Positions 29,565-31,513 of a stretch of DNA of 35,767 bases are shown here, in pieces. Positions within the stretch are counted from its first letter, which is position 1. Every line of letters starts with the position of its first letter. Source of the stretch: Leptospiraceae bacterium (GTDB lineage Bacteria; Spirochaetota; Leptospiria; Leptospirales; Leptonemataceae). The notes under the pieces are model-generated. The model was not told where the DNA came from. It did not search any database and saw only the letters and a program-made list of their open reading frames with translations. The stretch spans positions 1 to 35,767 of the forward strand of contig JAGRNE010000006.1 in assembly GCA_020440915.1 (NCBI GenBank). The letters run 5' to 3'. The position numbers and the translations under genes were made by a program.

Positions 29565-30770
29565 ATGAAAAGAATCCGACCGGCCCAACCTCCCCGACCT
29601 GCCCTGCTGGATGCTCGGGCAGTAGACCAAAGCGCCCGGAATTTGCCCCTGGCCTCGGCTGTGCACGCCGATAATAACCAGGATATGTCATTTCGTTTCC
29701 TGGATCTGTTTGCTGGCATTGGCGGCATGCGACTGGCTTTTTCCCGTGCCGGCGGCCAATGCGTATTTACCTCGGAATGGGATCGCGCGGCACAAATTAC
29801 CTATGAAGCCAACTTCGGAGAAAAGCCAGAAGGCGATATTACCGCCATCGGCGCCGAAGACATTCCCGATGCAGACATTCTGGTGGGCGGATTTCCCTGC
29901 CAGCCATTCAGCATAGCCGGAGTGTCCAAAAAAAATGCTCTGGGCCGAAAACATGGCTTTGGCGACGAAACCCAGGGCACCCTGTTCTTCGACATCCTGC
30001 GAATCCTTTCTGTGAAACGGCCATCCGCCATACTTCTGGAAAATGTGAAAAACCTGCGCAGCCACGATGGAGGAAAGACCTTCCAGGTGATTGTAGAGAA
30101 CCTGGAGCGCCTGGGCTATCATCTGAAGATTGAAATCGTAAACGCTGCATCGGTACTGCCACAAAATCGAGCACGAATATTCATTGCTGGTTTTCTGGAT
30201 CCTGCCGCCGCCGAACGCTTCAGCTTTCCGGAGTCCGAGAACTTTCCCCTTCCGGACTATCTCAAGTTGCGCCCTACGCGCTGGGAGGAAGCAACTACCG
30301 ATCGATCCGCTTATCGCCCGCGTCTTGGAGACATCCTGGAAAAATCCGTGGATGCAAAGTACACGCTTTCTGACCATCTGTGGAACTATTTGCAGGCCTA
30401 TCGGGACAAGCATCGAAAGGCAGGCCACGGCTTTGGCTTCGGATTATGCGGTCCTGCCGATATTGCCCGGACCCTTTCGGCCAGGTACTACAAAGACGGA
30501 TCGGAAATTCTCATCAAGCAGCGACCCTCCAAAAGGAATCCCGGGGCGAATCCCCGACGTCTTACGCCCAACGAATGCCGACGATTGATGGGATTTCCGG
30601 AAGACTTCCAGATTGTTGTTTCGGATACGCAGGCCTACAAGCAATTTGGAAACTCGGTGGCCGTGCCTGTAGTAAGCGCCATTGCAGAAGAAATGGCCCG
30701 TTCTCTTGCTGCGGCATCCAGATCGAGACGAAAATGGCAGACCGCAGGAAAACTGGCCTCCGCCTCCTGA
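29565..30770 (+). CDS. DNA (cytosine-5) methyltransferase, Dcm-like
   Basis: A 401-residue 5mC methyltransferase with the canonical motif order: I FRFLDLFAGIGG (43-54), IV GGFPCQPFS with nucleophile Cys112, VI ENVKNL (159-164), VIII QNRARIF (200-206), a target-recognition region (about 220-330), IX RRLTPNECRRLMGFP (331-345) and X YKQFGNSVAVPVV (358-370). The block LSDHLWNYLQAYRDKH to ARTLSARYYKDGSEILI resembles the Dcm/EcoRII-like group, but the target site cannot be read. The first ATG (29565) gives a 40-residue leader without homology; ATG 29685 (MSFRFLDLF) is a serious alternative, preceded by CAGGAT. No restriction endonuclease gene is adjacent; instead a mismatch glycosylase overlaps its end by 37 bases. 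A solitary methyltransferase for gene regulation or genome marking, or one left from a restriction system, are the options. Confidence 0.93.
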   Translation: MKRIRPAQPPRPALLDARAVDQSARNLPLASAVHADNNQDMSFRFLDLFAGIGGMRLAFSRAGGQCVFTSEWDRAAQITYEANFGEKPEGDITAIGAEDIPDADILVGGFPCQPFSIAGVSKKNALGRKHGFGDETQGTLFFDILRILSVKRPSAILLENVKNLRSHDGGKTFQVIVENLERLGYHLKIEIVNAASVLPQNRARIFIAGFLDPAAAERFSFPESENFPLPDYLKLRPTRWEEATTDRSAYRPRLGDILEKSVDAKYTLSDHLWNYLQAYRDKHRKAGHGFGFGLCGPADIARTLSARYYKDGSEILIKQRPSKRNPGANPRRLTPNECRRLMGFPEDFQIVVSDTQAYKQFGNSVAVPVVSAIAEEMARSLAAASRSRRKWQTAGKLASAS

Positions 30771-31513
30771 GCGAGAAAAAGCTTCGTTCCATTCATAGAG
30801 ATTTAATGAAATGGTTCTCCGGGGCCCGTCGCCAGTATCCCTGGCGGCAAACCCATAACTGGTTTCATCTAATGATGGCCGAGCTTATGCTTCGTCGAAC
30901 CAGATCCGACCAGGTGGCCCAGGTCTACTCCCGCTTTACCAGAAATTACAGGAATGCAGCCCGGGCCAGCGAAGATCCAGACGGCGTTCGCAGCATTCTA
31001 CAATCCCTGGGCTTGAACTGGCGAAACGAGCAGATGCTCGATACCATTCAGTACGTAAGCCATCGCTTTGGGAATCGCCACGCTCCTTCGGCCGGGGATG
31101 ATCTAACCGAAATACCGGGTGTTGGAGATTACTGTAATTCCATGCTCCGTAGCCGTCTCTTCGGCGAATCCAGAGCTGCCATAGACTCCAACGTGGCGCG
31201 CATTTATTGCAGACTTGTGGGCGAGCCCTATGATCCGGAAGTACGCAGAAAGAAATGGCTGAAGGATTTGAGCGGCCGATTCATGGAGTTGGCCACGGCA
31301 CAGAGCAACCCCGCGGCCCGCAAAGGCCCCGGGCCGGCGCCAGCCAGCCCCGAAGGTCTCAGCCATGCGATGGAGCAAGCCACCGACCCTTTTGAAATCA
31401 ACCTTGCTTTTCTTGATCTGGCGGCCCTGCTGTGCCGACCGTCGCAGCCCAGATGCCTGGAATGTCCCCTTCGAAAACACTGCGAGTTCGCAAAGAGCAT
31501 GCAAAAAAGCTAA
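30734..31513 (+). CDS. MIG-type T/G mismatch DNA glycosylase (HhH-GPD, Fe-S)
   Basis: A 259-residue helix-hairpin-helix glycosylase. PWRQTHNWFHLMMAELMLRRT (36-56) matches the N-terminal region of MutY/MIG enzymes. The hairpin is EIPGVGDY (126-133) and the catalytic Asp is Asp151 (AAIDSNVARIYCR). The iron-sulfur loop C234-x6-C241-xx-C244-x5-C250 is intact. The residue at the position of the EndoIII lysine (Lys120) is Tyr133, as in Mig.MthI, a thymine/uracil-DNA glycosylase encoded beside a 5mC methyltransferase; MutY has Ser there. The MutY-like C-terminal 8-oxoG domain is absent. A Pro/Gly-rich insert at about 190-218 is unusual. It overlaps the methyltransferase by 37 bases, so translation is probably coupled. 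ATG 30806 would be a shorter alternative. Its likely task is to remove T from T/G pairs arising by deamination of 5mC. Confidence 0.85.
   Translation: MADRRKTGLRLLSEKKLRSIHRDLMKWFSGARRQYPWRQTHNWFHLMMAELMLRRTRSDQVAQVYSRFTRNYRNAARASEDPDGVRSILQSLGLNWRNEQMLDTIQYVSHRFGNRHAPSAGDDLTEIPGVGDYCNSMLRSRLFGESRAAIDSNVARIYCRLVGEPYDPEVRRKKWLKDLSGRFMELATAQSNPAARKGPGPAPASPEGLSHAMEQATDPFEINLAFLDLAALLCRPSQPRCLECPLRKHCEFAKSMQKS

Follow-up and report, generated by a model that had tools for sequence, protein, structure and literature searches.

Two of the described systems closest to the gene pair analyzed here are from E. coli and Methanothermobacter. In E. coli, the gene for the repair enzyme Vsr, a PD-(D/E)XK nicking endonuclease, overlaps the 3' end of the dcm methyltransferase gene by 20 nt, and CTWGG is depleted. 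The Methanothermobacter plasmid pFV1 encodes Mig.MthI (MIG), a short HhH glycosylase with a four-cysteine cluster that repairs the T:G mismatches arising from 5mC deamination; its gene lies near that of an m5C methyltransferase in an NgoPII-type restriction-modification locus, and the two do not overlap. Besides pFV1, MIG-like genes stand beside methyltransferase genes in Thermus, Caldicellulosiruptor and Halomicrobium, the Thermus, Caldicellulosiruptor and haloarchaeal copies being on plasmids, so such guards are not confined to archaea; an initial sequence-only reading of our locus had called one unexpected in a spirochaete, the best known examples being archaeal. On Thermus plasmids pAA1-1c and pPS18 the MIG-like gene overlaps the 3' end of the cytosine methyltransferase gene by 29 nt, and an uncharacterised gene of 371-381 aa with no Pfam match precedes the pair. 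In these triplets (L051, 3457-6657; L055, 1475-4633), whose genes overlap or abut, the first gene may encode an unrecognised restriction enzyme. Two further plasmid loci were seen. In Alisedimentitalea (L057, 4001-4645) a MIG/MutY-like frame follows a cytosine methyltransferase and an MvaI/BcnI-type restriction gene; it has a stop codon near the start of the aligned frame and may be broken. In Haloplanus (L098, 2556-6284) a MIG-like gene and a cytosine methyltransferase gene lie beside a Pycsar-type cyclase/effector pair.

The window, the whole stretch of 35,767 nucleotides from a Leptospiraceae bacterium that was analyzed, carries such a pair on its forward strand. The gene at 29565..30770 encodes a 401-aa m5C methyltransferase of the Dcm/M.EcoRII-like type, with a predicted CCWGG target, and that at 30734..31513 (ATG at 30734) a 259-aa MIG-type HhH DNA glycosylase with a four-cysteine cluster, predicted to remove thymine from T:G mismatches. 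We propose, with a probability of about 0.77, that this glycosylase takes the part of Vsr as a guard of CCWGG methylation. The glycosylase gene starts inside the methyltransferase gene, as first noticed from the sequence, with an out-of-frame overlap of 37 bases (30734..30770). Three congeners share this overlap exactly, and each of the family's 12 adjacent pairs overlaps by at least 4 nt, the nearest upstream start codon being assumed. Both overlapping genes are thus confirmed as real. The arrangement resembles that of dcm and vsr. A cysN-like gene downstream of the pair is kept across the genus; the locus is thus on the chromosome and inherited vertically, which sets it apart, as does the overlap with a Dcm-type gene, from mig on pFV1. 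The Thermus pairs differ in being on plasmids and in the type of their methyltransferase, which is ~28-32% identical to that of the window over ~140 residues. Neither a restriction gene nor vsr adjoins the pair, in line with the initial reading.

The methyltransferase matches PF00145 as a full-length enzyme (Pfam profile search, E 4e-91). Its conserved core starts at the Met at 29685, and the N-terminal extension that precedes the core has a similar counterpart in relatives of the same genus. The closest solved structures are 3lx6 and 3me5, both named cytosine-specific methyltransferase, which we take to be Dcm proteins, and the block RTLSARYYKDG(S/A)EIL is common to all three in the alignment. 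Judged by these similarities, the protein is a Dcm/EcoRII-type m5C enzyme. The same genome also encodes, on contig C429, a complete EcoRII-type restriction enzyme (EcoRII-N plus EcoRII-C, PF09217 and PF09019), whose gene overlaps that of its own methyltransferase (L031, G000:C429, 688-2905). That methyltransferase is of the same type and ~57% identical to the one in the window, and the methyltransferases linked to the glycosylase and those linked to EcoRII form separate clades (support 90/95 and 94/93). The pair therefore represents a second CCWGG-type methyltransferase, this one with a guard. A second EcoRII copy, of 352 aa and 93% identical, lies on contig C90 and may reflect strain mixture in the MAG.

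EcoRII-C was found in 14 of the 15 genomes that carry the pair and also in G016; the six genomes lacking both pair genes are without it. Five of the EcoRII-bearing genomes (G007, G010, G011, G012 and G015) have a methyltransferase of the glycosylase-linked clade as the only Dcm-type one found, so this enzyme is likely their cognate protector against EcoRII, which supports CCWGG as its target. Together with a depletion specific to W, described below, the co-occurrence with EcoRII points to CCWGG as the motif methylated by the pair's enzyme. The sequence-only reading had described the pair as orphan and self-contained, and had named a restriction gene elsewhere that matches the methyltransferase as evidence against its proposal. 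With an EcoRII gene and its own methyltransferase on C429, and EcoRII co-occurring across the family, the description as orphan and self-contained is not supported at the genome level; the proposed guard function is unaffected.

We next consider the glycosylase, a short protein of the MutY superfamily. PF00730 (HhH-GPD) gave no match, as the Pfam model does not recognise the family. Structures matching the AlphaFold model (pLDDT 87.6) are N-domains of MutY and 1kea, which is MIG (TM-score for 1kea 0.85 by target length); alignment and model together clearly indicate an HhH family despite the Pfam result. The reported residues are present: Tyr133 (31130..31132) in the HhH turn PGVGDY, the catalytic Asp151 (31184..31186), aligned with Asp138 of E. 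coli MutY (EcMutY), and a C-x6-C-x2-C-x5-C cluster formed by Cys234, 241, 244 and 250. All are invariant in the family, save for one truncated copy without the cluster. This copy (L021, in G007) is truncated C-terminally, and G007 has a Vsr on another contig.

The family was then compared, in one alignment, with twelve MutYs and nine MIG-like proteins. Tyr133 corresponds to Lys in endonuclease III, Ser120 in EcMutY and Tyr126 in MIG, and the absence of the HhH-turn Lys separates the glycosylase from endonuclease III. The initial reading had taken this Tyr as diagnostic of MIG. It occurs in all of the MIG-like proteins; however, it is also present in 10 of the 12 MutYs, and in that of B. stearothermophilus (PMC2714593), and for that reason it is not diagnostic. 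The pocket residues are more telling. Val45 and Gln182 of EcMutY, with Ala50 and Leu187 as their MIG counterparts, are considered to set the preference for adenine or thymine (PMC2714593). The position of Val45 is Ser58 in the window protein and Ala in most family members, and that of Gln182 is Leu in the family (Ile in one, with the truncated copy misaligned; Leu224 in the window protein, 31403..31405). At the position of EcMutY Leu22 and MIG Phe27 the family has Tyr or Phe (Tyr35 in the window protein). The YY of the MutY motif YYxRARN is replaced by Leu plus a variable residue, and the C-terminal 8-oxoG domain of MutY is absent. Thus the fold and Cys cluster without that domain, the pocket residues and the position beside an m5C methyltransferase gene are those of MIG, although identity to Mig.MthI is ~23%. 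The PF03852 fold of Vsr endonucleases is not found in the glycosylase, and its resemblance to Vsr would be one of functional analogy only.

In the trees, the family groups with Mig.MthI and the Caldicellulosiruptor and Thermus proteins (support 95/88; 93/78 without long branches). The MutY clade (96/96; 95/96 without long branches) excludes the family and holds the genome's own MutY, a separate 467-aa protein encoded on contig C49. An AU test did not reject the family as sister to MutY rather than MIG (p 0.22). By its residues the glycosylase goes with MIG; the trees agree with moderate support, preferring the MIG grouping anticipated in the sequence-only reading to the one with MutY that the AU test did not reject. 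The genome also contains two near-identical Nth genes (L003 and L004, on G000:C134 and C404), possibly from strain mixture in the assembly.

Close orthologues of the glycosylase were found in 15 of the 22 genomes of the window's family and in none outside it (61 genomes). A wider scan of ~85,000 species genomes (GTDB) with family peptide patterns returned 12 family members, nearly all from MAGs whose deposited names are Leptospiraceae, Leptospirales, Spirochaetia or the like. Two acidobacterial matches (L048, L049) were considered as relatives of the pair and rejected, being MutY proteins with YY, Gln and the C-terminal domain. A search of phages for the glycosylase gave only distant unannotated matches (identity 22-29%). 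All 15 glycosylase-bearing genomes have the methyltransferase, adjacent and overlapping in 12; in G015 the two genes are ~2 kb apart with one opposite-strand gene between them, and in G010 and G012 they lie apart. The six family genomes without the methyltransferase all lack the glycosylase (Fisher p 9e-5 for the co-occurrence, genome kinship ignored). The pair does, then, travel together, as the initial reading had suggested might be surveyed. Within the family, G016 alone has the methyltransferase and lacks the glycosylase; there Vsr comes immediately after the methyltransferase, and in two genomes of the same class outside the family (G036 and G043) a homologous methyltransferase is likewise followed directly by Vsr; EcoRII is close to the methyltransferase-Vsr genes in all three. 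No vsr (PF03852) was found in the window's genome or genus.

If T:G arising at CCWGG is repaired to C:G, CTWGG ought to be scarce. Oligonucleotide statistics were computed from stretches of 40-200 kb of each genome (for that of the window, 48.8 kb), with a third-order Markov expectation and ranking among ~270 degenerate 5-mers. No 5-mer was more depleted than CTWGG in six of the seven genomes with the pair (O/E 0.41-0.71); in the seventh, G020 (60 kb), it was only weakly depleted (0.89). E. coli gave 0.68 (rank 3), and seven genomes without the methyltransferase gave 0.77-1.18 (ranks 8-270). Against genes with shuffled synonymous codons the CTWGG ratio was 0.13-0.51 in pair-bearing genomes, 0.49-1.05 in those without, and 0.29 in E. 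coli. Given the kinship among the genomes and the different GC of the controls, the p-values for these contrasts (Mann-Whitney p 0.004 for the Markov statistic, p 0.001 for codon shuffling) are indicative only. CTSGG showed no depletion. The abundance of CCWGG was rejected as a signal, being enriched in most pair-bearing genomes and depleted in G009. Were CCWGG methylated and not repaired, CTWGG would become commoner; the sign of the signal thus argues for biased repair. Every examined genome with the methyltransferase has a guard, and the depletion is therefore not assignable to the glycosylase alone; we infer that the glycosylase causes it, although it could also stem from a Vsr present in the past or from biased repair of another kind. 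We know of no sequence specificity for MIG enzymes, and the limitation of the depletion to the W context, unexpected for such an enzyme, is the most interesting point.

Among the alternatives, the one we take most seriously, while still thinking it unlikely, is that CTWGG is depleted for some other reason, such as codon or context bias or an ancestral Vsr, so that the depletion carries no information on the glycosylase. The kinship of the genomes, their differences in GC, the weak effect in pair-bearing G020 and the mild depletion (0.77) of a high-GC control without the pair all leave room for it; against it stand the first rank of CTWGG in six of seven genomes, its persistence after codon shuffling with CTSGG unaffected, the same direction as in E. 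coli with Dcm and Vsr, and the absence of vsr from the window's genus. It is quite improbable that the protein is a truncated MutY-type adenine glycosylase, acting on A:G or A:8-oxoG, that sits beside the methyltransferase by chance. The best named NCBIfam match is indeed mutY (TIGR01084), many of the best structure matches are MutY, Tyr is common at the HhH position in MutY and the AU test tolerates a sister relation; yet the mutY score is 107 against a cut-off of 286, the Val45, Gln182 and YY positions and the 8-oxoG domain have been replaced or lost, the genome already has its own MutY within the MutY clade, and linkage with the methyltransferase is near-strict.

The ROS1/DEMETER enzymes share an HhH-GPD plus Fe-S architecture with the protein class in question. 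They excise 5mC directly (PMC10273834), and MIG takes U from U:G as well (PMC2714593), so the protein could demethylate 5mC, or repair U:G and T:G in general rather than serve its neighbour. Tyr133 in place of the Lys of a bifunctional lyase, co-occurrence with one particular methyltransferase and a footprint specific to CTWGG speak against this reading, which we take to be very improbable. Restriction by base excision at unmethylated CCWGG, with the methyltransferase protecting, seems to us hardly credible: a methyltransferase-glycosylase pair is the layout of such base-excision restriction-modification systems, which exist, but those described are of the R.PabI type, with HhH proteins not mentioned there (PMC10273834), EcoRII already provides CCWGG restriction in the same genomes, Vsr occupies the glycosylase's place in relatives, and CTWGG depletion fits T:G repair.

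We therefore return to a methylate-and-guard unit, the Vsr-like role put forward in the initial reading, which is strengthened by the residues separating MIG from MutY, the linkage to the methyltransferase, the presence of Vsr at its place in related genomes and the scarcity of CTWGG. In such a unit, the methyltransferase would place 5mC at CCWGG, whose deamination to T would leave T:G, CTWGG being the product from mCCWGG. The glycosylase, acting as a monofunctional, Asp-dependent enzyme with no Lys, would excise the T, and AP endonuclease, polymerase and ligase would restore C:G. An unrelated enzyme would thus do, by base-excision chemistry, what Vsr does beside Dcm in E. coli, in spirochaetes that also encode an EcoRII-type CCWGG restriction enzyme at another locus. 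A stronger version, in which the glycosylase is itself selective for T:G in the CTWGG/CCWGG context, a convergent replacement of Vsr that reshapes oligonucleotide content as VSP repair does in E. coli, is tentative and in our estimate falls somewhat short of even odds; to our knowledge, sequence-selective T:G glycosylases have not been established in this superfamily.

A MIG gene beside a methyltransferase gene was already known from pFV1; the pairing with Dcm and the CTWGG footprint look new, no Dcm/CCWGG methyltransferase with a MIG-type guard having been found in the literature searched, from which most subscription journals were missing. The locus adds vertically inherited sites on bacterial chromosomes to the range of MIG-type guards, and the CTWGG depletion raises the question of whether an HhH glycosylase can discriminate by the surrounding sequence. 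Two unrelated enzymes, Vsr and a MIG-type glycosylase, fill one slot behind one type of methyltransferase, which is an argument that CCWGG methylation needs a safeguard against 5mC deamination and that selection maintains it.
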